From positions 558,001 through 622,000 of the forward strand of contig NZ_VFPN01000001.1 in NCBI RefSeq assembly GCF_006716695.1: a stretch of DNA of 64,000 nt, written 5' to 3'. Each line of letters begins with the position of its first letter. Within the stretch, counting starts at the first letter, position 1. The stretch comes from Klugiella xanthotipulae (GTDB lineage: Bacteria > Actinomycetota > Actinomycetes > Actinomycetales > Microbacteriaceae). A program made the position numbers and the translations under genes. A model generated the notes under the pieces. It ran no database searches. It saw nothing but the letters and a program-made list of their open reading frames with translations, and had not been told where the DNA came from. Shown piece after piece: positions 12,884 through 54,380 of the stretch.

Positions 12884-15484
12884 CTAGCTCTCCGCGTCGG
12901 CGCTCGCCTCGGTACTCCCTGAACCAATTCCGTCTGAATCAGTTCCGTCTGAATCAGTTCCGTCTGAATCAGTGCTGACCTTGGTGATCGGAGCAATTTT
13001 AATCAGGATCTTCTTGGGCCCCACCTCCTCAAAATCGACGTGCGCAATGCGCTTCGTTCCCACACCCGTAACGGCGCTCACCACCCCGGGGCCGTAGTCG
13101 CTGTGCTCCACCCGATCCCCCGCCGCCAACTCCAGATCACCGTTATCCTGAACGCTGCCGAGGATGGTGTTGGGGAAGGCGGACTCACCGCCGCTGCGCT
13201 GCGCTGCGGCTTTCGCCCGCTTCGCCTCACGCCACTTCTGTAGGCTGCTCGTCATATTGCCCGAGGCTGGCTCGGACACCGCCGCGGAGGACCCACCCCG
13301 GAAACCCACCGAACTCGACGAGGGCTCATTCGACCGCCGCGAGTAGCCGCCGTGGCCGCCGCCCGGTCCGCCGCGCTGGGCGTTAAGCGCCCGCGGCTGT
13401 GTACCCTCCCGGCTCGTCACCATGCCCGGCGACTGCTTCCAGGAGATCAACTCCGGCGGGATCTCCTGCAAAAACCGGCTGGGCAGCGCAACGGATATCT
13501 CACCGTACTGGGCCCGGGTCATCGCGAGCGAGAGGAACAGTTTCTCGCGCGCACGGGTGATGCCCACGTAGAAGAGACGACGCTCCTCGGAGGGCCCGCC
13601 CGCCTCATCGGCCGACATCTGGTGGGGCAGCAATCCCTCTTCCACACCCGTGATGAAGACCGCACGATATTCCAGGCCCTTGGCGGTGTGCAGGGTCATC
13701 AGCGAGACCGTGCCGCTCGTATCGTCGAGGTCGTCGGCCGCCGCAACGAGTGAGACCTCGGTGAGGAAATCGACGAGCCCGCTCTCGGGGTTATTCCGGC
13801 TGAACTCGCGGGTCACGGCCAGCAACTCGTCCACGTTCTCGGCCCGCGCCTCATCCTGGGGGTCTTTGCTCGCGCGCAGGATGTCCAGATAGCCGGTCTC
13901 CGTGAGGATGTAGTTGAGGATGTCGCTCACCGCCGTGGGCTTCTGCCCCTCCGCGGTCAGCGCCATACTCGTGGCGTGGTCCAGGATGCCCGAGAGCGTC
14001 AGGATCGACCCGCGCACCTTCGGCCCATACCCCAACTCGGCCGCGCGCCGCATCGCGTCGCGAAACGAAATCTCCTGCCCCTCCGCAAATGCGGCGAGCT
14101 GCGCCTCCGTCATGGGCCCGATTCCACGCTTGGGCGAGTTCAGGATGCGCCGCAGAGCGTACTCGTCAAATGGATTCGCCACGGTAATGAGGTACGCAAT
14201 CGCATCCTTGATCTCGGCCCGCTCATAAAACTTGGTGCCGCCCAGCACCCGATACGGAATCGCCTCCCGAATAAAAATCTCTTCCAGCGCACGCGTCTGA
14301 GCATTGGTGCGGTAGAACACCGCCATATCTTTATAGCCCACACCATCCCGATGCAGATCCTCGATCTCATCGGCGATGAAACGCGCCTCGTCGTGACCGG
14401 AGTAGCCCGTGAACCCCACGATCTTCTCGCCCTCACCCAGGCCAGTCCAGAGATTCTTCGCTTTGCGGTCAAAGTTGTTCGAGATCACAGCGTTGGCCGC
14501 GCTCAGGATGTTCTGGGTGGAGCGGTAGTTCTGCTCCAACATGACGACCTCGGCCCCCGGATAGTCGCGCTCAAACTCGGTAATATTGCGGATATCCGCC
14601 CCGCGAAACGCGTAGATTGACTGGTCCGAGTCGCCCACAACCGTGAGACCGGCCCCCGGGATGGAGCCATCCTCGGCAACCTCCCGCGGGGCATACTCAA
14701 ATGTCGCGGCTGCGACGACCTCGGGCTCGACCGGCCGGGTCAGCTCACGAATAAGCGCGTATTGCGCATGGTTGGTGTCCTGGTACTCGTCTACCAGGAT
14801 GTGCCGGAACCGGCGCTGATAGAGCGCGGCCACCTCGGGAAAAGCCCGAAACAGAAACACCACCTGGCCGATGAGATCGTCAAAATCAAACGCATGAGCC
14901 CGCGCCAGTTCCTTCGAGTAACGCCGAAAAACCTCAAGAAATGCCTGCTCACGAGGATCATTCGCGCTCGCACTACGGGCAAACGCATCCACGTCTGTCA
15001 GCTCGTTTTTGAGCTTGGAAATACGGCTCGCGGTACCCGCCGGGGTGAGTCCCAGGTGGTCAAGATCAAGGTCCTTAATAATGCGTTTGAGTAGCGCACG
15101 CGAATCGGCCGAGTCATAGATAGTGAAGCTCTTCACGTAGCCAAAGCGTTCGGCCTCACGACGCAGAATGCGCACACACGCCGAGTGGAATGTAGAGATC
15201 CACATACCCTCGGCTGCCTGCCCGAGCAGCTGTTCCACCCGCTCACGCATCTCGGCGGCCGCTTTATTGGTGAATGTGATGGCCAGAATCTGGCTGGGCC
15301 AGGCCTCCCGAGACCGGATCAGGCTCGCGATGCGGTGGGTGAGCACCCGCGTCTTACCCGAGCCTGCCCCGGCCACAATCAGCAGCGCCGGGCCACGATA
15401 CTCAACGGCCCTCGCCTGCTCCGGATTGAGCCCGGCCAGTAGGTCGTCGGAGGAGGAGTCACTAAAGATGGGAGGCAACGTCAT
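12884..15484 (-). CDS. pcrA: ATP-dependent DNA helicase PcrA/UvrD (UvrD1 type)
   Basis: Superfamily 1A 3'-5' helicase for nucleotide excision repair and removal of recombinase filaments. All motifs are visible: AGAGSGKTRVLTHR (Walker A), LVDEYQDTN (Walker B), VGDSDQSIYAFRGAD, LEQNYRSTQNIL, TLHTAKGLEYRAVF and LFYVGITRAREKLFL. The C-terminal Tudor-like segment (GDRVEHSDYGPGVV...AHVDFEEVGPKKILI) binds RNA polymerase in relatives. The tail ends in a repeated SDGTD stretch encoded by a 15-bp tandem repeat. ATG 15484 (MTLPPIF) is preferred; the frame opens to 15517. Order pcrA-sucC-sucD is conserved in mycobacteria. Confidence 0.95.
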   Translation of the reverse strand: MTLPPIFSDSSSDDLLAGLNPEQARAVEYRGPALLIVAGAGSGKTRVLTHRIASLIRSREAWPSQILAITFTNKAAAEMRERVEQLLGQAAEGMWISTFHSACVRILRREAERFGYVKSFTIYDSADSRALLKRIIKDLDLDHLGLTPAGTASRISKLKNELTDVDAFARSASANDPREQAFLEVFRRYSKELARAHAFDFDDLIGQVVFLFRAFPEVAALYQRRFRHILVDEYQDTNHAQYALIRELTRPVEPEVVAAATFEYAPREVAEDGSIPGAGLTVVGDSDQSIYAFRGADIRNITEFERDYPGAEVVMLEQNYRSTQNILSAANAVISNNFDRKAKNLWTGLGEGEKIVGFTGYSGHDEARFIADEIEDLHRDGVGYKDMAVFYRTNAQTRALEEIFIREAIPYRVLGGTKFYERAEIKDAIAYLITVANPFDEYALRRILNSPKRGIGPMTEAQLAAFAEGQEISFRDAMRRAAELGYGPKVRGSILTLSGILDHATSMALTAEGQKPTAVSDILNYILTETGYLDILRASKDPQDEARAENVDELLAVTREFSRNNPESGLVDFLTEVSLVAAADDLDDTSGTVSLMTLHTAKGLEYRAVFITGVEEGLLPHQMSADEAGGPSEERRLFYVGITRAREKLFLSLAMTRAQYGEISVALPSRFLQEIPPELISWKQSPGMVTSREGTQPRALNAQRGGPGGGHGGYSRRSNEPSSSSVGFRGGSSAAVSEPASGNMTSSLQKWREAKRAKAAAQRSGGESAFPNTILGSVQDNGDLELAAGDRVEHSDYGPGVVSAVTGVGTKRIAHVDFEEVGPKKILIKIAPITKVSTDSDGTDSDGTDSDGIGSGSTEASADAES
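12931..12975 (-). repeat. 15-bp tandem repeat in the pcrA 3' end
   Basis: Three head-to-tail copies of CGTCTGAATCAGTTC (12931-12945, 12946-12960, 12961-12975; the last copy differs at one base). They encode the SDGTD pentapeptide of the PcrA tail. Copy-number change would stay in frame. Confidence 0.9.
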
Positions 15485-15541
15485 GGTGCCCACCAGTCTA
15501 CGTGCCACCCCCGACATCCGAGCGGTGCCCGGCAGCCCCCG

Positions 15542-16567
15542 CTAACGCCGCAGCGCCGCTACCAGATCGGGGTGATCGCAGAAAACCCCGTCAACCCCCG
15601 ACCTGAGGATCAGCCCAAACTCACCCTGCCAATCGCCCCACTGCACCGGATCGCTACCCAGGCGAAAATTCTTGCTCAGATAGGTGTTTTCGGGACGTAA
15701 CGTCCAGGTAAAAATCGTGAGTCCTGCCGCGTGGGCCCGCTCCACGAGAGCATTCGTACCGTCACCCGCCGCGAATTCACCCCGCCGAAGCAGTAGGCTT
15801 TTGGGCACGCTCACACCGTCAACCGGCGGATAGCCCTCGGAGCCCGCCGCAAGCTCCGCAAGCCCCGCCGCGGTTACCCAGTGGGAGAACGGCCGGGCAG
15901 TGCCGCCCAGCCGGGCCACATCATCCGCGGGAGACCCCGAAGCCTCGACCAGAAAAACCAGGCGGGCCGGGACACCTCGCTCGCGCAGCTGCCCGAGCAC
16001 ACGCCTCTCAAACGACTCCACAATCACACGCTGAGCACACTCTCCCCACCCCGCCGATTGGATCTCACGCGCGAAAAGTTCACCGAGCGGCAACCCCAGC
16101 GAATCAAAGTAGGTGGCGTGCTTAATTTCGGCCACGAGCAGCACGCGCCGACCGCGAGCCTCGTGCGCATCGAGAATGCTCAACAGGTCACGCAGACGCA
16201 GGATGGGCGAACGCCCATCACACGCCGCACTCTCCGGACGAGCCTCCCCCAGCCGCTCTCGTGTGCGCAGGGTGGCCAACTCGGCCCAGGTAAAGTCCTC
16301 GGTAAACCATCCCGTCTGCACGGTACCGTCAATCACCCTGGTGGTACGGCGGTCGGCGAACTCGCGGCGACCGGCGACATCGGTCGTATCGGCAATATTG
16401 TTCTCATGCCGGATGACCAGGATGCCGTCGCGCGTCGCCACAATATCCGGCTCAACCGCATCCGCCCCCAGTTCAATGGCCAGTTCGTAGGCCTCACGCG
16501 TGTGCTCCGGGCGGTAGCCGGAGGCCCCCCGATGGCCGATGATGAGGAGTGACGGGGTGGCTGACAC
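15542..16567 (-). CDS. Glycerophosphodiester phosphodiesterase
   Basis: Hydrolyses glycerophosphodiesters to sn-glycerol 3-phosphate and an alcohol. 341-residue TIM-barrel GDPD protein: IGHRGASGYRPEHTREAYELA holds the catalytic His and Glu, DAVEPDIVATRDGILVIRHE carries the metal ligands and second His, and LLVAEIKHATYF and GVDGVFCDHPDLV follow. No signal peptide, so it is cytoplasmic. The start is GTG 16567; the upstream sequence has no ribosome site but TATGGT exactly 6 nt before the GTG, a leaderless signature. Confidence 0.93.
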   Translation of the reverse strand: MSATPSLLIIGHRGASGYRPEHTREAYELAIELGADAVEPDIVATRDGILVIRHENNIADTTDVAGRREFADRRTTRVIDGTVQTGWFTEDFTWAELATLRTRERLGEARPESAACDGRSPILRLRDLLSILDAHEARGRRVLLVAEIKHATYFDSLGLPLGELFAREIQSAGWGECAQRVIVESFERRVLGQLRERGVPARLVFLVEASGSPADDVARLGGTARPFSHWVTAAGLAELAAGSEGYPPVDGVSVPKSLLLRRGEFAAGDGTNALVERAHAAGLTIFTWTLRPENTYLSKNFRLGSDPVQWGDWQGEFGLILRSGVDGVFCDHPDLVAALRR

Positions 16568-24995: not shown

Positions 24996-26105
24996 CTAGC
25001 GACCGCGCACCACAACCTCCACGCGCTGAAACTCTTTCAGATCGCTGTAGCCCGTCGTGGCCATCGAGCGGCGCAGTGCGCCGTGCAGATTGGACGTGCC
25101 ATCCGCCACGTTGGCCGGGCCGTAGAGCAACTCAGAAAACGGCGCAACCGTTCCTACATGCACTCGGTTACCGCGCGGCAGGTCATCGTGGTAGGCCTCC
25201 TGGCCCCAGTGCCAGCCGCCGCCGGGGGCGTCTGTGGCGCGGGCCAGGGCGGTACCGAGCATCACGGCGTCGGCACCGCACGCGATGGCTTTCACGATAT
25301 CGCCCGAACTGCCGAGGCCACCATCAGCGATGACATGCACGTAACGCCCACCCGACTCATCCAGGTAATCGCGGCGCGCACCGGCAACATCCGCAATGGC
25401 CGTTGCCATGGGTGCGTGGATACCGAGGGTGGCCTTGGTCGTGGAACTCGCCCCGCCACCGAAGCCGACAAGCACACCCGCGGCCCCCGTGCGCATCAGG
25501 TGCAGGGCCGCGGTATAGGTGGCGGCACCACCCACGATCACGGGAACATCCAACTCATAGATGAACTTCTTGAGGTTAAGCGGCGCGATCTCGGTAGAAA
25601 CGTGCTCGGCCGAGACGGTGTTGCCTCGGATAATGAAGAGGTCAACGCCGGCCGCGACGACCGTCTCGTAGAGCTCCTGCGTGCGGTGCGGCGAGAGGGC
25701 ACCGGCCACGGGAACGCCCGCGGCGCGAATCTCGGCCAGGCGGGCGGTGACGAGCTCGGGCTTGATCGACTCCGAGTAGATCTCGCGCATCCGCTGCGTT
25801 GCGCTCGTGACGGGGAGACGCTGGATTTCGTCCAAGAGGGGCTGTGGATCCTCGTAGCGGGTCCACAGGCCCTCCAAGTTGAGCACGCCCAGGCCGCCGA
25901 GCTGGCCGATCTGAATGGCGGTCTCCGGGGAGACTACCGAGTCCATCGGTGCGGCGATAAAAGGCGTATCGAATCGGAACGCGTCAATGCCCCACGAGGT
26001 TGAAACGACCTCGGGGTCGCGGGTGCGGCGACTGGGGACGATAGCAATATCGTCAAAACCATAGACTCGACGGGCGCGCTTGGCACGGCCAATTTCTATC
26101 TCCAT
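24996..26105 (-). CDS. guaB3: GuaB3, IMP dehydrogenase-related protein
   Basis: 369 residues from ATG 26105 (MEIEIGRAKRARRVYGFDD); a GTG four codons upstream is an alternative. It keeps the IMPDH TIM barrel (FIAAPMDSVVSP, VIVGGAATYTAALHLMRTGAAGV, VIADGGLGSSGDIVKAIACGADAVML) but has no CBS pair. The catalytic-loop segment reads GGGASSTTK where GuaB has SICTTR, so the active-site cysteine is missing. Catalysis of the IMP dehydrogenase reaction is therefore doubtful; GMP reductase-like or regulatory roles are possible. True guaB lies at 33425-34927. Confidence 0.9.
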   Translation of the reverse strand: MEIEIGRAKRARRVYGFDDIAIVPSRRTRDPEVVSTSWGIDAFRFDTPFIAAPMDSVVSPETAIQIGQLGGLGVLNLEGLWTRYEDPQPLLDEIQRLPVTSATQRMREIYSESIKPELVTARLAEIRAAGVPVAGALSPHRTQELYETVVAAGVDLFIIRGNTVSAEHVSTEIAPLNLKKFIYELDVPVIVGGAATYTAALHLMRTGAAGVLVGFGGGASSTTKATLGIHAPMATAIADVAGARRDYLDESGGRYVHVIADGGLGSSGDIVKAIACGADAVMLGTALARATDAPGGGWHWGQEAYHDDLPRGNRVHVGTVAPFSELLYGPANVADGTSNLHGALRRSMATTGYSDLKEFQRVEVVVRGR

Positions 26106-26130
26106 ACTCACTCTCACTACCCTACCTGGT

Positions 26131-26170
26131 CGCGGGCCCTCCGATCTCGGGAGAGAACGGAGGGCCCGCG
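26131..26170 (-). terminator. Terminator of the DUF11-repeat surface-protein gene
   Basis: Perfect 13-bp stem (26131-26143 with 26158-26170) and a 14-nt loop, 16 bp after the stop at 26187. Confidence 0.7.
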
Positions 26171-26186
26171 GGCTGAGCAGGGAAGG

Positions 26187-29100
26187 TTAGACGACCCGTC
26201 CGCCACCGCGGCGCCGGTTGCACATCGCCAGGAACACGCCCGAAGCCAGGAGGAACACTGCGGCGAGGCCGAGGGGGAACGGCGAGGAGCCGGTCAGGGC
26301 AAGACCCTGTACCAGATCCGTGTCGCTCGCCTGGCAGGCATCGGTATCTGTGCAGCCCTGGGCGCTCGTGACCGTGGCCGGGTTCAGCACCACGCCAAAG
26401 CCACCCGCATTGACCGTGGCCACCACCTGCACCGTGACATCCGCCCCGGCACCCAGCTCACCCAGCTCAAACGTGACCTCGCGCGTCTTCTCATCGTAGG
26501 TGCCACCCCCGGTAGCCGACACGAATGTGAGAGTGGGCGGGAGCTGATCCCGGGCCACAACCTCCGACGCGGCGACGGTACTGCGGTTGCTGATGACGAG
26601 GTCGTAGGTGAGTTGCTCGTCAACGTCCACCTGGGTGCGGTGGTCATCCAGGGTGATTCCGAGATCAGCGACTCCGTCCAGGTCAAATGACTCGCACGCG
26701 TCTGGACTCGAACAGCCGCCCGGTATCTGTACCAGGGCGGTGCTGAGCACATGAGCCCCGGGAGCGATGTCCTTATCGGCGGTGACGGTTACCTGTACGG
26801 TTGTGGTACCACCCGGAGCAATCCGGGGCAGGCTCCAGGTGACGGTGCCATCCGCCGCGTTCAGTTCACCGCCGTCGGATGCCGAGACAAATGTGACGTT
26901 ATCCGGCAGAGTGTTGGTCACCTCGGCCGCCTCGACTGTGTTCGTGGCGGAGTTGTTCCCCACCACGATGTCGTAGACGAGTTCCTGAGCCGGGGCAATC
27001 ACGGTCAGGTGATCGTCGAGGAGAATCCACACATCCGAGGGAAGGCGATCAGTATCAACCGAGACGCACTCCGCAACCGGAGTAGCCGGGTTATCGACGC
27101 ACACGCCCGCGGTCGCAATCGACGCCGTGTTGACCACGCGGGTGTCAGCCGGGAGGTCGTCGTGCACGCGCACCGTAACCGTGATAGTTACCGAGGCGCC
27201 CGGAGCGATCGTGCCCACATTCCACTCAAATGCGAGCGGGTTATCAATAGATTGGGTGGCCGTGATCGACGACGTGACAAAGTCCACGTTCGTCGGCATT
27301 GTGTCGCGCACCATCACCTCGGTAGCCTCGTCGTCACCATCGTTTCTCGCGGTGATCGTGTACACCGCAGTTTGCCCAGAGCGCACGATAGTCAGGCCAT
27401 CATCCACTGTAATGCCGATCGCGGGAACGCGGTCGGTGTCACTCGACTCACACTCGTTGGTCACGGTTGTGATGTCGTCGGCACATGTTCCGTCTGTGGC
27501 CACGCGCGCGGTCGCCACCACGGTCGCATTAGGCAGGACCCCCTTCGCAACCGTTCCGGTCACGTGCAGCGTCGTCTGGGCCCCGGCAGGCAGGTCACCC
27601 AGGTTCCACGTCACGGTGCGATTGGTGGGGTCGTAGGTTCCGTGCGCATCCGCCGACACAAATGTGAGGTCATCGGAAAGCACCTGGGTAACCGTCACGC
27701 GGGGAGCCACTCCGGGCATCCGGTTGGTGACGACCACATCGTAGGTGTTCTGCCCGCCGGGGACGGCAGTGGTCAGGTGGTCGTCGGTGGTCACCGAGAC
27801 CGCGGGAACGCTATCCGTATCGCGGGCACCGCACTCGTCACCGGGGGTAGCCGGATCATTGGTGCAGCCATGATCGGAGGTCACTGTGGCGTTATGCACC
27901 ACCGAGTCTCCCGCGGATACCGAGCCCACCCGGACCGTGACCGTGAGAGTCTCCGTGGTGTGCGCCCCCCGCTCACCGAGTGTCCAGGTCACGGTCGTCC
28001 CGTCTTCTGAGGGCACTCCACCGCCGGTGGCCGAAACGAACTCGGTGTTGGGAGGAAGAATGCTGGTCACGACCACGCCGGGTACCGCACCGTCACCGGT
28101 ATTGGCCACCACAACGTCATACGTCAGGACATCGGCAGAGCGCACCACCTCGCGGTGGTCATCCACCACAACCGAGATCGCGGGAGTACGGTCCACATCG
28201 GTCGCGGAGCAGATGGCGGTGCACCCCTCGGCTGAGGAAACGGTCGCGGTGTTGCTGATCGAGTGGTTCGGAGCCAACGCGGGATCGACGGTCGCCGTCA
28301 CCGATACCGTCTGCGTCCCGGAGACCGGGATGGTACCAACGTCCCAGCGCACGGTGCGAGTATCTGGATCGTATCGACCCCCCTTCGTGGCGCTGACAAA
28401 GGTGAGTTCTTCCGGCAACGAGTCGGTCACGGTCACGCCCGTGGCCCGGTCCTCGCCCGTGTTGGTCACCACCAGGTCGTATGTGGTGTCCTCTCCGGTA
28501 CCCACAATCTCCGTGTGGTCGTTCTTCGCGATACTCACGCCCGCAACAGGAACGGGATGTGTCGTGAGGCAGCCCCGCCCGGTATCGGTCACGCAGGTGG
28601 CCGGAACGGAACCACCGTTGGGGTCACTCGCCTCAGCGGTCGCCCGGTTGAGAAGCGTGGTGGCCTCGGCAAAGTCTGTCTTGACGACCACCGCGTAGGT
28701 GAGAGTCACACTCTTCCCGATGCCCAGGGGGCCCGTCCAGGTGAGGAGATTACCCGCGCGGGTGGGGGCTGGGCCGGTCGAGGCGGCGAGGGAGGAATCC
28801 TGGATCGTCGCGTCGTCGAGCACATCGGCCAGATCATTCCGAATGGTGACCCCTGTGAGCGGAGTCTCGCCCGTGTTGCTGGCCGTCACCGTGTAGGTCA
28901 CGGTGCTTCCGCGCGTGACGGCCTGCCCAGAGGGTGAGTCCGCTTGCAGAGCGATCGAGAGGGAGGGATCACCGGCGATGATTGGATGAACCGTAGAGCA
29001 CGCGGTCTCAGCACCGGTCGTGCAGCCGGATGCGACCGCCCCTCCCGCCGGGTCAGTCGCACTACCGACGACCCCGCGTACAAGAGACTGTCCACTGCGG

Positions 29101-30575
29101 TACTCCTCGCCCAGCAGCACCTGATAGGTGAGCGTGACGCTTTCGGCCGGGGCTAGGGTTCCTTTCCAGGTGAGGTTTTTACCCGAGATGACAGGAACCG
29201 CGCCGGTGGTAGCGGCAAGCGAACCCGCCACCACGGTGGCGTTGTCGAGAACATCCGCCAGGGCATCGGTGAGCGTCACATTCGTGAGGGTGGCATCCCC
29301 TGTGTTTGTCGCACTGACGGAATAGGTGACATAATCGCCAGCGGAAACAGCAGTGCCCGACGCGGGGGTCGCCGACGTGGCCACAGCGAGGCCTGCGGTG
29401 AACCCCTTGACGGTGACGGCAAATGTTGCTGTCTCCATCTCATACAGGCTGAGCTCGTCCACACCCAGGTCGTTACCAATACCGCCGATAGTCATGTTGC
29501 GTACCCCCAGCGTCAGCGAGGTGGCCGAACCGGTATTCACGGTCGAGGTCATACTGGTCCAGGTGGTGGCCGCGTTATTGCAGCTAGGTTGCTTCGGCGA
29601 ATTGACACTCGAACCGATGAGGGTATTGCCCGCGAATAGAGCGCTGCGCACGGGGTTGATGGGGTCCGAATCGTAGCTCAGGTTGGCCAGGTAGCCCGAG
29701 AAGGTGTAGTTCGTGTGGGGGGTGAGACCCGTCACCGTGGTTACCACCAGGTTGTTCGGCACCGGCATATTTTCCGAACCGTTAATGATGAGAAACTTAC
29801 CCGCCTGTTCAGCCGTGGCCGTGGGCACCTGGTAGGAGTTGTTCGCCGAGCAGACCGTTGCACTGTTCACCGTCATCGGGGTACCCACGCTGCGCAGGTC
29901 GGCCCACAGGTTATTGAAGTGCGACGTGGAGCCGCCCATATTTGCGGTCGGCCAGATCGTGTACAGCCCGTCACACGGACCATACTGCGTCGACGTGCAG
30001 GTACCGTTGCTCGCGTTCAGTACCGTGGGGTCCTTATACCGGTACGCCGTGTTGAGATCCGGAAGCACCGGTTTGGCCTGGGCAGGTTCGGATGCGCTGC
30101 CGTTGTAGTCAAATGTGCCGTTGTCAAAATCCGTGATGAGGTTTGCGGCCGAGGTTGACACCCGCGAGAGCTGCAGACCCGACACCGTACCCTCGAACCC
30201 CACCGGCGGCACCAGGCTGACCGCACCGGAACGAGCCGCGGTGCCCACCAGGCTATACAGGATGGGATCGGGTGAGAGCGGTGCGAGCGTCGTTCCCGCC
30301 ACGGTGACCGACCATCCAGCCGGCACCCCGCCTAAGATATAGCTGCTCGACGGAGTAGCCATCTCGTCCGTCACCGTAATGACGAAACCCGGGTCCGCAG
30401 CTGACAGCCGCTTCTGGATTGTTGCGGGGGTCGCGGTGACCGATAAGCCGTCTGTGGCCTCAGCCGGGGTGCCGGGAGTCGAAACGAGGGCAGCAACCAG
30501 GAGGGCCGCGACAACTGCGATTGCTGTCGTGCGGCCGATCCACCGCCGCGCAGCGTTCAGCGTGTAGTCAATCAT
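26187..30575 (-). CDS. Giant DUF11-repeat surface protein with LALTG sortase signal
   Basis: A 1462-residue exported wall protein. Signal peptide about 1-41. An N-terminal beta-rich region (about 45-390) has four Cys and an ITDFDNGTFDYNG motif; its exact family is not recognised. Eight DUF11-type Ig-like repeats begin near residues 395, 538, 680, 800, 927, 1052, 1184 and 1304. The last six are of one subtype with a DDH(R/L)T-like entry, a TFVSA core strand and a linker holding two Cys and a DTD(R). LALTG (1425-1429), a hydrophobic anchor and NRRRGGGR close the protein, the layout of class E sortase substrates. No good ribosome site. It lies 155 bp downstream of the ECF fusion gene, same strand. 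Probably an adhesin or fibrous surface layer component. Confidence 0.87.
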   Translation of the reverse strand: MIDYTLNAARRWIGRTTAIAVVAALLVAALVSTPGTPAEATDGLSVTATPATIQKRLSAADPGFVITVTDEMATPSSSYILGGVPAGWSVTVAGTTLAPLSPDPILYSLVGTAARSGAVSLVPPVGFEGTVSGLQLSRVSTSAANLITDFDNGTFDYNGSASEPAQAKPVLPDLNTAYRYKDPTVLNASNGTCTSTQYGPCDGLYTIWPTANMGGSTSHFNNLWADLRSVGTPMTVNSATVCSANNSYQVPTATAEQAGKFLIINGSENMPVPNNLVVTTVTGLTPHTNYTFSGYLANLSYDSDPINPVRSALFAGNTLIGSSVNSPKQPSCNNAATTWTSMTSTVNTGSATSLTLGVRNMTIGGIGNDLGVDELSLYEMETATFAVTVKGFTAGLAVATSATPASGTAVSAGDYVTYSVSATNTGDATLTNVTLTDALADVLDNATVVAGSLAATTGAVPVISGKNLTWKGTLAPAESVTLTYQVLLGEEYRSGQSLVRGVVGSATDPAGGAVASGCTTGAETACSTVHPIIAGDPSLSIALQADSPSGQAVTRGSTVTYTVTASNTGETPLTGVTIRNDLADVLDDATIQDSSLAASTGPAPTRAGNLLTWTGPLGIGKSVTLTYAVVVKTDFAEATTLLNRATAEASDPNGGSVPATCVTDTGRGCLTTHPVPVAGVSIAKNDHTEIVGTGEDTTYDLVVTNTGEDRATGVTVTDSLPEELTFVSATKGGRYDPDTRTVRWDVGTIPVSGTQTVSVTATVDPALAPNHSISNTATVSSAEGCTAICSATDVDRTPAISVVVDDHREVVRSADVLTYDVVVANTGDGAVPGVVVTSILPPNTEFVSATGGGVPSEDGTTVTWTLGERGAHTTETLTVTVRVGSVSAGDSVVHNATVTSDHGCTNDPATPGDECGARDTDSVPAVSVTTDDHLTTAVPGGQNTYDVVVTNRMPGVAPRVTVTQVLSDDLTFVSADAHGTYDPTNRTVTWNLGDLPAGAQTTLHVTGTVAKGVLPNATVVATARVATDGTCADDITTVTNECESSDTDRVPAIGITVDDGLTIVRSGQTAVYTITARNDGDDEATEVMVRDTMPTNVDFVTSSITATQSIDNPLAFEWNVGTIAPGASVTITVTVRVHDDLPADTRVVNTASIATAGVCVDNPATPVAECVSVDTDRLPSDVWILLDDHLTVIAPAQELVYDIVVGNNSATNTVEAAEVTNTLPDNVTFVSASDGGELNAADGTVTWSLPRIAPGGTTTVQVTVTADKDIAPGAHVLSTALVQIPGGCSSPDACESFDLDGVADLGITLDDHRTQVDVDEQLTYDLVISNRSTVAASEVVARDQLPPTLTFVSATGGGTYDEKTREVTFELGELGAGADVTVQVVATVNAGGFGVVLNPATVTSAQGCTDTDACQASDTDLVQGLALTGSSPFPLGLAAVFLLASGVFLAMCNRRRGGGRVV

Positions 30576-30631
30576 GTGCGAGGAAATTCACTTTCTCAAA
30601 TTGGGTGGGGTGTGAACCGCGACCCGACCCC

Positions 30632-30652
30632 TATAACCGGGTGCACGTTATA
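30632..30652. promoter_or_regulatory. Inverted repeat TATAAC-N9-GTTATA upstream of DUF11 gene
   Basis: Perfect 6-bp half-sites 57 bp upstream of the DUF11 protein start, overlapping any likely promoter. It may be an operator or a -10 region; no regulator is known to match. Confidence 0.35.
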
Positions 30653-30730
30653 CAGCAACCTGCCTGTTCACACCGTTAATAAGGAGTGGACGTAAGACGC
30701 TTTAATCACGCAAAGTAATGCAGAAAAAAT

Positions 30731-32110
30731 TTAGGTGGTGCGGACAGTGGCAACGGGAAGGGGCGCATCGGCCGCAATATCCACGACAAATTGCAGGTTA
30801 TAGGCCTGCAATCGCGCCATATTGAGGGTGGGTGTGCAGACGCTCACCCGGTTGGTCACCACGCACCCGGCGGAGACCGCCGACACCGCAACACCGTCCG
30901 GCATGGTCACCGTCACCTCATAATCGCCGGGGCTGCCCTCGCCCTCAACCGTGACCGTGAGCAGAAGCTGAATACCGCTCCCGCCCGCCCAGTACTCGGG
31001 CGGCACCTCCCGCCACTCGACGCTCACGACACCGGACGAGGAAGGCGTCGAGGTCGCAAGACGGTCGGGTACGGCCGATACGCTCGCCGTCGTGTCCGCC
31101 TCCGGGGGAGTATCAGCAGCGTTCTCCTCGGCGGGCACGCGCGCCGACACCTCAACCGCCGAGCCCGAGCCGCTGACCGTGGGCGCGACGAGGGCGGGCT
31201 GAAGCAGTGGAAACAGGATGACCCCGGCCGCAACCACCAGGCCAACGCTCGGCACGCCGATCTTAAGCAGAGTTGCCCGCAGCCCCGCACCGCCCAGCGG
31301 TGTGGACACAGGAGCGCTCCCCGCGAGAACGGACGCCGATCCCCCCACAGCGGAGGTGCCCGCCATACCCGCGAGGTCGCCCACAAAGACCAACCCCAGC
31401 AGAACCGCAACCGGCACGCGGGCGGCCAACATGGCGTGCAGCAGAGTCTGGCAGCGCGGGCACCCCTCGCAGTGCTGTTCGATTCGGCGGCGGCGCAGTG
31501 CCGTGGAGCGACCGCGCGCGTACGCGGCTAGGTAGTCGTCGCGCATCTCACTGCATGTGAGATTATCGGCGACAAGCTCCTGTAAGTAGCGGGTGCGCAG
31601 GAGGTCGCGGGCCCGATGCACCGCCGAGCCCACCGAACGCTCGGAGAGTCCGAGGCGCTGGGCGACCTCGGCCAGCCGCATCCCCTCAACCTCAACCAGG
31701 TAGAGGATGGTCTGTGACCGTTCGGACAACTGGAGAAACGCCCGACGGACGGCCCGGGCGGCGGCGATGCCGTCGTCATCGGGAAGGACGGGGTCCTGAC
31801 TCTCTTCGGCGATCTGGTCGATATCCGGGGTCGCAACGAGCCGGTTTTCCACAGCGAGTACTTTGAGGGCTTCGTGACGGACAGCCACGCGCATGTAGGA
31901 GATGAATGCCGCACGGGTGGGGCCACCCCCGGCCCGTATCGCGCGGAGCACGGAGAGAGAGGTCTCGGCAACAACATCTTCACGCAGCGACTCGTCGCGG
32001 ATCAACGACGCCGCAAACCGCTCCAGATTCCGTTGCGACCGCACGAAAAGGTCCCAAAACTCCTCTTCGCTGATCGAGTTGCTCGTCAACTCACTCATAA
32101 CAACCCGCAC
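30731..32110 (-). CDS. ECF sigma factor fused to zinc-finger anti-sigma, membrane and sensor-like domain
   Basis: A 459-residue fusion. Region 2 (about 17-85) shows LREDVVAETSLSVLRA; region 4 (about 120-178) shows LSERSQTILYLVEVEGM and SERSVGSAVHRARDLLR. A zinc-finger anti-sigma module follows: Cys186, then H213-x3-C217-x2-C220. Two hydrophobic segments (about 227-249, 284-309) precede a Thr/Ser/Pro linker and a DUF11-like beta domain with C416-x8-C425-T. If both segments span the membrane the last domain would be inside; if only one does, it is outside, which the Cys pair and linker favour. GTG 32110 is used because AGGGGA stands 5 nt before it. It likely regulates itself and the surface gene downstream (inference). 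Confidence 0.85.
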   Translation of the reverse strand: MRVVMSELTSNSISEEEFWDLFVRSQRNLERFAASLIRDESLREDVVAETSLSVLRAIRAGGGPTRAAFISYMRVAVRHEALKVLAVENRLVATPDIDQIAEESQDPVLPDDDGIAAARAVRRAFLQLSERSQTILYLVEVEGMRLAEVAQRLGLSERSVGSAVHRARDLLRTRYLQELVADNLTCSEMRDDYLAAYARGRSTALRRRRIEQHCEGCPRCQTLLHAMLAARVPVAVLLGLVFVGDLAGMAGTSAVGGSASVLAGSAPVSTPLGGAGLRATLLKIGVPSVGLVVAAGVILFPLLQPALVAPTVSGSGSAVEVSARVPAEENAADTPPEADTTASVSAVPDRLATSTPSSSGVVSVEWREVPPEYWAGGSGIQLLLTVTVEGEGSPGDYEVTVTMPDGVAVSAVSAGCVVTNRVSVCTPTLNMARLQAYNLQFVVDIAADAPLPVATVRTT

Positions 32111-32540
32111 TCATCCCCTGATGACGTCCCCCACTCACTAGCTGGGCCAATAGTAAGCATGACGTGTAAAAATTCGCGTGAAATATCATCAAATCTCACC
32201 CCGAACACGGGTTTAATTCATACTCAGCGAGCGAGTTTCCTCGCCGAATAGCGATCATCCCGACGCTCGCGACCAATGCCCAACCCTCAACGCCCCTGGA
32301 GAGGGAAGTTTTATCAGACACACGACAGGCCAGGACGCTTCTCACTACCCACGCGGCACCACGCCCGACCCGGCGAGGTTTTCACCAGAGAGAAAATAGA
32401 TTTTTATTCATGAGAATCCCTTTATGACTTAATATTTCCCACCTGTAGTCCAATGGGAAAGGCTCACTTATAGCCGCAGAGGCCCGTCCAGCTGAGCCGC
32501 ATGGAAGCCGAATGATTATCACATCACGGCCACCGGAACC

Positions 32541-32576
32541 GCTTCGGATAGCGAGGTTATCCTCGCTATCCGAAGC
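32541..32576. repeat. Perfect 16-bp stem hairpin in non-coding DNA
   Basis: 32541-32556 is the exact reverse complement of 32561-32576 with a TTAT loop. There is no flanking gene end for it to terminate and no U-tract, so it may be a remnant terminator of a lost gene or a structured RNA element. Confidence 0.7.
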
Positions 32577-33328
32577 GGGCGGCTGTGCACACCGACGAGA
32601 ACGAGTACATACTCATACACGGCGAATCGTCCCACTCGCGACGCTCTCTATTCGGTGTCACAGTATGCCGACACACCCGCCGAGATCAGCGAGCGGGTCA
32701 CCCCGTTCGGCCGCGGCGTGGGCCTCCAGGAAAAACTTCTCCTGCGGTCCGATGCCCACATTTCGTGGAAACCGGCCATACCCCGCCGAAAATGCAGCGG
32801 CTACGCGCTTGTTACGCCCGAGCCCGCCCGGCGAGAAAACGCCACTCCCGTGGTCGAGATACACGAGACAGGAGTGGAGTCGCAGTCGCCAACTCGGCCC
32901 GCGAAGGTCGAGTAATCGCACACCAGAAAACGCTCTCGATTATCCGCTTGATTTCATAGTTATCCCCAACCCCCATTTTGTATCCCCCTTCACTCAACCC
33001 AAGCCCCCATAGCTCGAATATCGTCACGAAGTGGATAGTTCAGAAAGTACAATAACACCGACCTGAAAGTCAATCCTGAGGCTAACATCAGTAAGGATTT
33101 TTAGTGTTATTAATCAAGTAATTGTGTAAGGTTCGCTAAAAAATTTGTTTATTTTTTAAATAAGTACAGAAGTGTTTATCTTTTTTCTCAGATAAACCGC
33201 ACGTTTCCGACGGTTTTTGCCACACGTCTCTCCACCCATGAACGCCGTGCGAGAAAGTTGCACAAGCAACCCGCAAAACAAATATGAATTATTTAGTTTT
33301 GATAACAATTCACGGTTGCCTCATTCAA

Positions 33329-33393
33329 CCCCGGGCATCCGGCACTATACGCCGGATGCCCGGGGTCACTACCCATTCGGGCGGTGACCCCGG
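33329..33393 (-). terminator. guaB terminator region with two overlapping hairpins
   Basis: 33329-33343 pairs perfectly with 33351-33365 (15 bp). 33360-33369 pairs perfectly with 33384-33393 (10 bp). The two stems share 33360-33365 and exclude each other. They lie 32 bp after the guaB stop. Confidence 0.65.
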
Positions 33394-33424
33394 GCATCAC
33401 CGAGGACAACGGGCGCGGCAGCCC

Positions 33425-34969
<1,545 letters not shown>

Positions 34970-50796: not shown

Positions 50797-52770
50797 ATGA
50801 TCCACCACACGTTTCCCGCCGTCGCGACAGTTCCCACCGGGGCTGTCGGCGCTGCCACGACGCGCCGCTACAACGGGCTCGACGGATTACGCGCACTAGC
50901 TGTCTCGCTCGTGCTGGTGTACCACCTCACTCCCGGTGTGCTCCGCGGAGGTTTCATCGGCGTGGACATCTTTTTTGTGGTCAGTGGCTTCCTGATCACG
51001 AGCCTGCTCCTGCGGGAACACGCCGTACACGGCCGCATCTCACTGCGCGGGTTCTGGCAGCGCCGAGCCCGCCGTCTCTTGCCAGCCCTCGCCCTCGTCA
51101 CCCTCACCTGCAGCTCACTCGGTGCCCTGGTGGGCGGAGATACCCTGGTCAATCTGAGCAATCAACTCCTGGGAGCCGCAACCTTTAGCAGCAACTGGGT
51201 CTACATCATTGACGACAGCAGCTACTTCGCACGAGACACCCCCGACCTCTTCCGCAACCTCTGGTCCCTCGCCGTTGAGGAGCAGTTTTACATCCTGTGG
51301 CCGCTCGCCGTTATCCTGCTTCTCGCCGTCGCGCACAGCCGACGCCAGCGGGTGGTCACAGTAGCAACCTTCGCGCTCGCATCTGCGGCACTCATGGCTT
51401 TCTACTATGTGCCGGGTGAAGACCCTACACGCGCCTACTTCGGTTCAGACTCGCACAGTTTTGGACTGGCGATTGGGGCCGCACTCGCGTTCCTCGCAAC
51501 GCGGACTCAACCGGGCCGGACATCCGACCAGCGGCCCAGCTCCGCTCTCCTCGCCCGCCCGGTCACCGTGTACGGAGTTGCCCTGTTCAGCACTCTGGCC
51601 CTCTTCGCCGGGGCCGTGTGGCTACAGGAACAGGGCGGCTTCACCTATCGTGGCGGGATAGTACTCGTGAGCCTCGCCACGGCAGCGCTAATCTGGGCCG
51701 TCACCAACCACACAACCGCCCTCGGCCGGTTTGTGGATATCCGCCCCCTGCGCTACATTGGCGAGCGTTCCTACGGCCTCTACCTCTGGCACTGGCCACT
51801 CTGGGTGCTCCTCCAGAGCGCCACGCACACCCTCGACCGCGCGCACTGGAACCCCTGGCTCACGGGTGTGCTCGCACTCGCCCTAACCGCCATCTGCGCC
51901 CACCTGTCCTACCGCTTTGTCGAGCAACCCATCCGCCGGCTGGGTCTGCGCGGTGCGGCCGTGGCCGCGTGGCATTCGGTGGGTGGTACCGGAATTCGCT
52001 CCGTAACGGCGAGCACGGTCGCCGCGCTCCTGGTCCTCACCGCCAGTGGCAGCACCTCTGCAATCATGTCGAGCACCAGCACAAACTCGGCAACAACCAA
52101 CATCGAGCGGGGGCAGACCGCTGTCAACAACGCCGACCTCGAAGGAGCCGCCCCCGACGGTATCAGCCCCAGCGCTACAGCCCCCGGCCCCGGTAGCGCG
52201 GGGAACACGCCCCCCGGTGTACCACCACCACAGCATCCACTTCCCACCGGCGACCACATCTCGGCCGTCGGCGACTCGGTGATGCTCGCGAGTGCCCCCG
52301 AACTTCAGGCCGCCTTCCCCGGGATCACGGTGGATGCCGCCGTCTCACGCTCCATGCGCAGCGGCGCGGAGATCGTAACCCGGATGGCCACCGAGGGCAC
52401 CCTCCGCAACGTTCTGATCGTGGGCCTCGGCACCAACGGCCCTATCAGCGACGAGTCACTCGAGGCAATCCGGGTCGCGGCCAACGGACGACCACTCGTC
52501 CTGGTGAACGCGTTTGGACCGCGGAGTTGGATTCCCGAGGTCAACGCCCAGCTCACAGCTTTTGCCGCCCGCTACCGCAACGTAGACGTCGCCAACTGGA
52601 ACGAGACGATCAGTGGCAGTGTCAATTTTCTCGCCGGCGACCAGATCCATCCCGGGGCGCAGGGCGCTAGTCTCTATACATCGAGCGTGCAGGCGGCCCT
52701 TCAGCGGCTCGCCGATCTGCCACCCCTCCGCGACAGCACGGGCTACGGGCTCGCGGGTCCGCCCTCCTAG
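50797..52770 (+). CDS. Acyltransferase-3 / SGNH fusion (OatA-like O-acetyltransferase)
   Basis: A 657-residue membrane protein. The N-terminal acyltransferase-3 domain (about 24-400) has RYNGLDGLRALAVSLVLVYH with the catalytic His, GGFIGVDIFFVVSGFLIT, SLAVEEQFYILWP and ERSYGLYLWHWPLW. A Ser/Thr/Pro linker (about 425-485) leads to an outer SGNH hydrolase-like domain: GDSVM (Ser near 492), GLGTNGPI and DQIHP (Asp/His near 615). Proteins of this layout O-acetylate peptidoglycan or surface glycans. No clear ribosome site at ATG 50797, so the start is tentative. It is 74 bp upstream of the second ECF fusion, same strand. Confidence 0.9.
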   Translation: MIHHTFPAVATVPTGAVGAATTRRYNGLDGLRALAVSLVLVYHLTPGVLRGGFIGVDIFFVVSGFLITSLLLREHAVHGRISLRGFWQRRARRLLPALALVTLTCSSLGALVGGDTLVNLSNQLLGAATFSSNWVYIIDDSSYFARDTPDLFRNLWSLAVEEQFYILWPLAVILLLAVAHSRRQRVVTVATFALASAALMAFYYVPGEDPTRAYFGSDSHSFGLAIGAALAFLATRTQPGRTSDQRPSSALLARPVTVYGVALFSTLALFAGAVWLQEQGGFTYRGGIVLVSLATAALIWAVTNHTTALGRFVDIRPLRYIGERSYGLYLWHWPLWVLLQSATHTLDRAHWNPWLTGVLALALTAICAHLSYRFVEQPIRRLGLRGAAVAAWHSVGGTGIRSVTASTVAALLVLTASGSTSAIMSSTSTNSATTNIERGQTAVNNADLEGAAPDGISPSATAPGPGSAGNTPPGVPPPQHPLPTGDHISAVGDSVMLASAPELQAAFPGITVDAAVSRSMRSGAEIVTRMATEGTLRNVLIVGLGTNGPISDESLEAIRVAANGRPLVLVNAFGPRSWIPEVNAQLTAFAARYRNVDVANWNETISGSVNFLAGDQIHPGAQGASLYTSSVQAALQRLADLPPLRDSTGYGLAGPPS

Positions 52771-52844: not shown

Positions 52845-54380
52845 ATGTCCGATATTCTCCCCGCTCTGTCTGACGACGACCTGCTCAACCGGGTCCGTGA
52901 CGGCGATCTGGACGCCGTCAGCGAGATTTTCTCCCGCCATCACCTCGCCGTGCGCAACCTCGCCTTCCGCTGGGAGCAGAACCCCACCCAGGTTGACGAT
53001 CTTGTCTCGGAAGCCTTCGCTCGGCTGGTAGAGCAGCTCAAGGCGGGCAAGGGACCGCAGTGCGGTGTGCGGCAGTATCTCTACGTGACCATGCGCAACA
53101 TCGTCACCGATTCGTTGCGGGCGTCGGCACCCACCCACTCTGTGAGCGACATTGACGACTATCTTCCCGCGGTCGAGGCAGCAGACCTGGCAGGCGAACG
53201 CGACTGGGAAAACACAATTGTGGCACAGGCGTTCACGGGGCTGCCTGAACGATGGCAAGAAGTGCTGTGGTACGGCTCCGTGGAAGGGCTCAAGCCGCGC
53301 GAGATGGCCCCGATTCTCGGCCTGGCACCCAACGCCTGTTCAGCGTTGCTCTTACGAGCCCGGGAAGGTTTCTCACGCGCCTACCTGGAGGCCAGAGTCG
53401 CCTCCGATCTCCCCGAGGAGTGCAAGGCGAATGCGCCAGCCCTCGCCGATATCGCCACGTCGCGCGGTCACACCCCGCGCGCCCTCCGTCGGCATCCACA
53501 CATCAGCACGTGCGCCCACTGCCAGGCGGCACTCACCAATAGCGCGGATATCACGGCCACCCTCCGCACAATCGTTGCGCCGCTGACGGTGGGCAGCGCT
53601 GCCGTTGCGGCCGCACTCTGGCCGACCCAGCAGGCCTCAGCTCTGGCCCTACTGGGCGCATTCCCCCTCACAAAAATTGCGGCGGGGGTACTCGTTGCCA
53701 CTGTCGTTACCACCGGGGCCATCCTGGGCCTGACCCACGCGGAACCCGGAGAACAGGATGCGGGCCAGCCGCTCACCGCAGCAGCATCGCTGGAGCAACC
53801 GGGTGTACCCGTTGCTCCCGATCCCGGTGACGCCCCCACCGCTCCCCTGGGTGAGGTCACCATCGAAGGTGCCGCACCCACGGAACCGGCCGCGGCCACT
53901 CCAGGAAAGCCCTCGGCCACTCCCCCGGGTACTGTTCCGGCTGCACCCAGCCCCGGAGCACCGCCCGCAGCTCCGGCCACCCCGACGATAACTCCGACCC
54001 CCACCGTGGGCTTTACTCTCTCTGCCCCGGCCACAATTGAACAAAAGTCTTCAGACTCACTCGTCGTGACCGTCACAAACTCAGGTACGGCCGCCTCGGG
54101 GTCACTCTCGTTCAGTGTGACACTCAACGGGGATGGATCTTTCCCACGCAGCACAGCACAGTCAAGCGGCGCAGCCGCCTGGAGCTGCACGGCCTCGGGA
54201 ACGACGGCCCGCTGCACCGCCAGCAACCTGGGGGTCGGCAGCACCAGCTCCGTTTCCATCCCCGTGGCGGCCGAGGGATATCCCGGAAGCACAGTCACCG
54301 CCCTGCTCAGCCCCAGCGGCAGCGGGGTCACCTCGACGGGAAGCAGCGCATCGAGCACCATCGTGTGGCCCACCCGCTAA
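52845..54380 (+). CDS. Second ECF sigma / zinc-finger anti-sigma / membrane / DUF11-like fusion
   Basis: 511 residues with the same order of parts as the protein at 30731-32110. Sigma region 2 (about 11-95; PTQVDDLVSEAFARLVEQL), region 4 (about 125-185; GLPERWQEVLWYGSVEGL, LGLAPNACSALLLRAREGFSRAYL). The zinc-finger anti-sigma module has Cys193 then H219-x3-C223-x2-C226. Hydrophobic segments about 242-258 (weak) and 278-298 (strong). A Pro/Ala linker (about 300-390) leads to a beta-rich C-terminal domain with C448-x8-C457-T. Sigma-core identity with the other copy is low, so this is not a recent duplication. Probably controls the adjacent acyltransferase or envelope genes (inference). Confidence 0.85.
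   Translation: MSDILPALSDDDLLNRVRDGDLDAVSEIFSRHHLAVRNLAFRWEQNPTQVDDLVSEAFARLVEQLKAGKGPQCGVRQYLYVTMRNIVTDSLRASAPTHSVSDIDDYLPAVEAADLAGERDWENTIVAQAFTGLPERWQEVLWYGSVEGLKPREMAPILGLAPNACSALLLRAREGFSRAYLEARVASDLPEECKANAPALADIATSRGHTPRALRRHPHISTCAHCQAALTNSADITATLRTIVAPLTVGSAAVAAALWPTQQASALALLGAFPLTKIAAGVLVATVVTTGAILGLTHAEPGEQDAGQPLTAAASLEQPGVPVAPDPGDAPTAPLGEVTIEGAAPTEPAAATPGKPSATPPGTVPAAPSPGAPPAAPATPTITPTPTVGFTLSAPATIEQKSSDSLVVTVTNSGTAASGSLSFSVTLNGDGSFPRSTAQSSGAAAWSCTASGTTARCTASNLGVGSTSSVSIPVAAEGYPGSTVTALLSPSGSGVTSTGSSASSTIVWPTR

Follow-up and report, generated by a model that had tools for sequence, protein, structure and literature searches.

A putative membrane-tethered ECF sigma factor encoded beside a giant sortase-type surface protein, and the recurrence of this pairing in Micrococcales

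ECF sigma factors of the groups ECF48, ECF52 and ECF53 carry a C-terminal extension with a zinc finger, one or two transmembrane (TM) helices and a domain outside the cell (PMC8999054). Such proteins, among them the ECF52 protein SCO4117 of Streptomyces coelicolor, combine these parts in one polypeptide in Actinobacteria, and proteolytic release has been proposed for them (PMC5826349, PMC8999054). No fixed partner surface gene for SCO4117, ECF48 or ECF53 is reported in the literature that we examined. Sigma is also fused to anti-sigma in IutY (ECF243) of Pseudomonas putida, which is freed by Prc and RseP cleavage (PMC8999054), although IutY belongs to Gram-negative iron cell-surface signalling and no adhesin partner is described for it in that source. 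In Clostridium thermocellum, SigI/RsgI pairs form many paralogous membrane sigma systems whose outside sensors serve the control of a surface machine, and RseP is reported to cleave RsgI (PMC12203970).

The window analysed here is a stretch of 64,000 nucleotides from Klugiella xanthotipulae. It encodes a protein that matches ECF48, ECF52 and ECF53 by their published architecture (zinc finger, TM segment and, by prediction, outside domain). Like IutY, this protein joins sigma to anti-sigma in a single gene, whereas in SigI/RsgI the two are separate, sigma-I is not an ECF factor, and cellulosome genes are controlled. A proline-rich region and a carbohydrate-binding domain are described for SCO4117; the linker of the window protein is not strongly proline-rich, and its C-terminal fold fits CBM2 and CLIPPER equally. 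The features of the locus are as follows.

33425-34927, reverse strand: guaB (IMP dehydrogenase), upstream flank of the cassette (TIGR01302, E 1.3e-178; synteny)
32111-33424: 1.3 kb separating guaB from the cassette, with no gene called in it, GC 0.53 and a perfect 18-bp inverted repeat at 32539-32578
30731-32110, reverse strand: fusion of 459 aa, with ECF sigma, zinc anti-sigma-type, TM and predicted extracytoplasmic sensor parts in one piece
31862-32047, reverse strand: sigma region 2, residues 22-83, weak here (PF04542, 18 bits, cut-off 24)
31604-31756, reverse strand: sigma region 4, residues 119-169 (PF08281, E 2e-12; fold match to ECF region 4 structures)
31451-31555, reverse strand: zinc anti-sigma-type motif C186...H213-x3-C217-x2-C220 (zf-HC2, 20.1 bits, just under the cut-off of 22.2)
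31379-31435, reverse strand: first hydrophobic segment, residues 226-244, by hydropathy; weaker in many paralogues
31184-31240, reverse strand: main TM helix, residues 291-309, by hydropathy; N-in/C-out from charge bias
30734-31036, reverse strand: C-terminal beta-sandwich, a putative sensor, residues about 359-459, DUF11/CLIPPER- or CBM2-like, with two Cys and no Lys
30576-30730, reverse strand: gap of 155 bp, with the sigma fusion upstream of the giant on the same strand
26187-30575, reverse strand: giant surface protein of 1,462 aa, with a signal segment, an N-terminal region and eight DUF11 repeats
26289-26303, reverse strand: LALTG sortase-type motif, followed by a hydrophobic stretch and an RRR tail (direct reading)
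24996-26117, reverse strand: guaB3, downstream flank of the cassette (TIGR01304, E 3.8e-168; synteny)
52845-54380, forward strand: second one-piece sigma fusion, with a CARDB/DUF11-like sensor, two Cys and a C-H-C-C motif, and without an anchored neighbour

The fusion at 30731-32110 opens with GTG, the alternative ATG being residue 5. Its first 180 residues reach 54.4 bits with NCBIfam TIGR02937 (cut-off 42.9), which marks an ECF sigma factor, and sigma-70 regions 2 and 4 lie in a short sigma domain, as is characteristic of ECF factors. At E 0.1, PF04542 recognizes region 2 in all 22 aligned fusion members and zf-HC2 recognizes 16 of the 22, the window protein being included in both cases, and the zinc ligands C186, H213, C217 and C220 show no variation across the 22 sequences. 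The fusion bears the ZAS/zf-HC2 motif, with zinc binding and sigma inhibition as putative functions. The original prediction had placed ECF regions 2 and 4 and a C...H-x3-C-x2-C finger in one frame; the PF08281 and TIGR02937 matches and the invariant ligands bear this out, hydropathy recovers its two hydrophobic segments, and its statement that ECF/anti-sigma fusions are known in Actinobacteria agrees with ECF48, ECF52 and ECF53.

The C-terminal domain of the window fusion is predicted to lie outside the cell. Among 49 fusions, K and R residues are more numerous before the strongest TM segment in 29 and after it in 3, a bias that predicts an external C-terminus. Most paired sensors have exactly two cysteines, the pattern to be expected if they form an extracellular disulfide. 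One paralogue in a genome of another genus of the same family (G003), namely G003_L058_9 (L058:9800-11431 (+); a 543-aa frame with sigma, zf-HC2 and TM parts), finishes with LTLTG followed by hydrophobic residues and RRRR, a sorting signal that exceeds the TIGR01167 cut-off. If the signal is used, the C-terminus of this sigma-bearing protein is exported, and the protein is possibly wall-anchored. Fusions of the L065/L067 type, which have a hydrophobic C-terminal end, were checked as further carriers of sortase signals and rejected, leaving L058 as the only one. The first hydrophobic segment is probably not always membrane-spanning; as a second TM helix it could place the C-terminus inside. Taken together, the charge bias, the paired cysteines and the L058 signal lend sequence-based support to the predicted one-protein transmembrane sigma switch with its sensor outside.

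The neighbouring giant also carries DUF7927 and DUF7507 domains, and displays the signal, stalk repeats, LPXTG-type motif, TM segment and basic tail of a sortase-anchored fibrillar adhesin. A TIGR01167 search at E 0.5 did not list its LALTG anchor, so the anchor is assigned by direct reading; the same reading and the eight repeats confirm that an LALTG-anchored DUF11-repeat protein lies 155 bp downstream on the same strand, as had been claimed. A search of 299 other genomes of the family at E 1e-30 returned no relative of its 537-aa C-terminal part.

The distance between guaB and guaB3 is at most 250 bp in 13 of the 27 genomes compared and 7.3 kb in the window. Since the sigma gene, the giant and the 1.3-kb stretch split this usual pair, the cassette looks like an inserted unit. 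The interval is also 3-15 kb wide in several other genomes (G009, G016, G017, G018, G039, G040 and G044), and may be a general insertion hot spot (24996-34927 in the window). An Rfam search at the cassette returned no RNA element.

Fusions of this kind recur next to sortase-type proteins. The window genome has seven, five of which adjoin giant sortase-type anchored proteins on the same strand. G003 has 25 TM-bearing fusions in the loci that were read, 21 of them next to a giant in the same orientation; in nine of these 21 pairs the two genes overlap by 4-11 bp. In genome G017 two of three fusions are paired with giants. The probability of such adjacency by chance, calculated with generous counts of anchored genes from TIGR01167 matches, is about 4e-7 for the window genome (5/7) and 8e-22 for G003 (21/25), values that overstate the case because paralogues are treated as independent and that make the sigma tree the better guide. 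Outside these expanded genomes, the enrichment across the order is modest: 9 of 71 further fusions have an anchored neighbour, compared with 2.5 expected from a background of 19 anchored genes among 1,066 others (P 9e-4), and the remaining 62 have none.

Plasmids carry the same association, among them two from Micrococcaceae with fusions next to sortase-pilus operons. The one from Arthrobacter alpinus bears two fusions, each adjoining a SpaA-type pilin gene that belongs to a class C sortase cluster, and the SpaA protein beside the first fusion contains DUF7927 and DUF11, like the giant in the window. The arrangement is repeated on a Paenarthrobacter plasmid, so that on both plasmids fusions adjoin SpaA, SpaH and class C sortase genes, and on an Arthrobacter plasmid a fusion lies upstream of an LANTG protein. 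The region L193:2974-18750 (NZ_CP013746.1) belongs to a mobilizable Arthrobacter plasmid with two sortase-pilus clusters, each with its own fused sigma. The one Streptomyces plasmid copy that was checked has no sortase-type pairing. A search of named genomes with alignment A1 recovered only two relatives, both Leucobacter MAGs. A conserved neighbourhood in relatives, whose absence would have spoken against the original prediction, is thus present, since fusions adjoin sortase-type proteins in other genera.

Not all members look alike. The second fusion in the window starts 74 bp after an Acyl_transf_3 membrane acyltransferase gene (50797-52770). Three paired fusions of G003 (L042:9281-10546, L054:6287-7549 and L054:13128-14321) have no recognizable folded sensor; each has instead a proline-rich tail that closes with a short tryptophan-containing peptide (TTPGWEAFD, ETESWVVITP and ETEGWVVVDE); these look like docking peptides.

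In a sigma-domain tree of 125 rows, built with FastTree and with local support only, the window protein falls in a supported clade of five whose members are all paired. The pairing label requires 14 changes on this tree, in contrast to 34.7 when shuffled (0/500), and at least 6 changes are forced by supported branches. Pairing is therefore clustered, and has been gained or lost several times.

Upstream of several paired giants we detected a bipartite ECF-type element, AAA[AG]TTTTT-N6-9-GCGTAWGGATT, which resembles the SigI promoter form AAA-N13-14-CGWA (PMC4711584). An unseeded motif search gave a mixed motif, and was replaced by a motif built from eight seeds chosen visually and judged by leave-one-out and by non-seed genes. 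Under leave-one-out all eight seeds rank within the top 5%. Of the genes that were not seeds, 4 of 21 paired giants reach a score of at least 16, compared with 5 of 333 other genes (P 0.001). One of these five lies upstream of a truncated giant relative (L040), and an anchored 734-aa gene in L055 also has a high score. A short ORF at about 15395-15620 (-) of L040 in genome G000 resembles a giant N-terminus and has a very strong ECF-like promoter match that was one of the seeds; the ORF is probably what is left of a truncated giant gene. Promoter sequences speak well for regulation in several paralogous pairs and weakly in the window pair, where the giant has a weak promoter-like match at about 30703-30732 (score 13.3; 6% of background upstream regions score as high) and the sigma gene has another at about 32148-32176 (3% of background regions as high). 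Control of the giant by the window sigma factor is accordingly extrapolated from the family. In G003 (L041-L062) the word GGGGA, often as TAGGGGA or TTGGGGA and in some cases in more than one copy, is present within 400 nt upstream of 18 of 19 giants and of 98 of 246 other genes; some of these copies resemble ribosome-binding sites.

The analysis establishes the fused architecture and its repeated pairing with sortase-type surface proteins, in which the partners have diversified together; the recurrence suggests that each switch runs its own surface fibre. We consider it reasonably probable that the window protein is an ECF sigma factor that is tethered to the membrane, inhibits itself and is dedicated to the adjacent sortase-anchored adhesin, and whose sigma part is released by cleavage. 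At rest, the zinc anti-sigma segment would keep both sigma regions, 2 and 4, bound at the membrane, while one main TM helix would hold the two-cysteine beta-sandwich outside. A surface event at the sensor, which might be a ligand, the state of the wall or the fibre itself, would then free the cytoplasmic sigma part, most likely through cleavage in two steps, with an M50 site-2 protease acting last. This cleavage is modelled on IutY, on the proposal for ECF48, ECF52 and ECF53 (PMC8999054), and on RsgI (PMC12203970); an M50 site-2 protease and sortases are encoded. The freed sigma factor would activate the adhesin gene and, in many cases, the sigma gene as well. The many fusions without an anchored neighbour, including the second one in the window, count against a dedicated switch.

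What the sensor detects is where the readings diverge. An AlphaFold (AF2) model of the last 110 residues is a beta sandwich with pLDDT 86. Its matches to the solved DUF11/CLIPPER domain 9IFR (VIA Z 9.2, 97 residues, 2.8 A) and to CBM2 chitin/cellulose-binding domains (2cwr, Z 9.4; 6qfs, Z 9.2) are tied, so that the modelled fold is CnaA-like and fits the two families equally; resemblances to integrins, adaptor proteins and further unrelated proteins with a beta sandwich were dismissed as generic. Pfam found neither a DUF11 nor a CBM match in the window sensor, and direct assignment as DUF11 failed. A profile comparison by hhalign with the giant's DUF11 repeats gave a weak match (E 0.0067, probability 5.7). 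CLIPPER domains (DUF11; PMC12617251) resemble the sensor by fold and the giant's repeats by sequence, and differ from the sensor in that its lack of Lys makes the Lys-Asn isopeptide bond of an isopeptide-bonded CLIPPER impossible. The DUF11-like C-terminal domain proposed originally thus stands as a fold, on the match to 9IFR, and does not stand as a Pfam assignment or as a choice over CBM2.

A CBM2-like domain could instead bind a polysaccharide and turn the adhesin on when the cell meets that surface. This would be similar to the proposal for ECF52 SCO4117 and to the report for SigI/RsgI, and is in keeping with the CBM2 structures among the top matches and with the carbohydrate-binding domains of ECF52 proteins (PMC5826349, PMC8999054). 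We regard sensing of a glycan or the wall as a serious but unlikely alternative: CBM2 and CLIPPER match equally well, W17 of the domain is the only invariant aromatic Trp among class I sensors and a CBM2-type aromatic face is at best putative, and the other paired sensors either show no sequence relationship or consist of proline-rich tails.

The dedicated switch could also read the fibre itself. Sensor class co-varies with the N-terminal class of the giant over 28 pairs (Mantel r 0.62, 0/5,000 permutations), which indicates that pairs are kept and duplicated together and does not by itself imply contact. If the sensor followed the secretion, sorting or assembly of the giant by direct contact between beta sandwiches, then synthesis would be matched to display. 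Besides the co-variation, the operon-like overlap in nine pairs and the Ig/DUF11-type beta sandwiches in both sensor and giant at the window are compatible with such feedback, and a surface protein feeds an ECF sigma pathway in Porphyromonas gingivalis (PorA-PorXY-SigP; PMC7712824). Yet co-variation is also expected if pairs simply duplicate as units, and no short-form sensor is convincingly similar in sequence to its own giant, for which reason a simple model in which the sensor was copied from its giant was dropped. The window pair is also an exception on the giant side, its N-terminus clustering apart from those of the sister pairs, whose giants are of the Big_6/GEVED type with unrelated N-termini. 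As sensors of the same class adjoin these giants, sharing of a DUF11 fold is no rule of pairing; the fold class that the sensor and the anchored protein were predicted to share holds for the window to the extent that the sensor is DUF11-like, and it is equally CBM2-like. We find direct feedback from the fibre doubtful. That the window protein is a general ECF52-like regulator, next to the giant incidentally since both are genes of variable islands, is improbable, because fusions in the expanded genomes adjoin giants far more often than by chance, share their strand, often overlap them and group by pairing on the tree, even though the majority of fusions across the wider order lack an anchored neighbour, SCO4117 is pleiotropic (PMC5826349) and the cassette looks like an inserted unit splitting a conserved gene pair.

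For the dedicated switch, the fused architecture is of a kind already known, and what appears new is its systematic pairing with sortase-built fibres in large paralogue families. Fused ECF sigma factors paired with sortase surface genes were looked for and not found in the literature that was searched, and an earlier description in the main ECF classification papers is possible. Tentatively, some Micrococcales may possess families of single-protein sigma switches in which every member has a sortase-built fibre of its own, giant adhesin or pilus, as its partner and reads it, such that fibre display is wired to RNA polymerase within one polypeptide; the sigma protein of at least one relative has a wall-anchoring signal. 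To our knowledge, how Gram-positive bacteria choose which giant adhesin or pilus to display is largely open. If the reading is true, a one-protein switch beside each adhesin, with about 20 in one genome, would be a simple modular answer to the choice of display, offering a testable partner in each case. It would also give a concrete job to the fused ECF groups, of which SCO4117 is the best understood in the literature that we examined.
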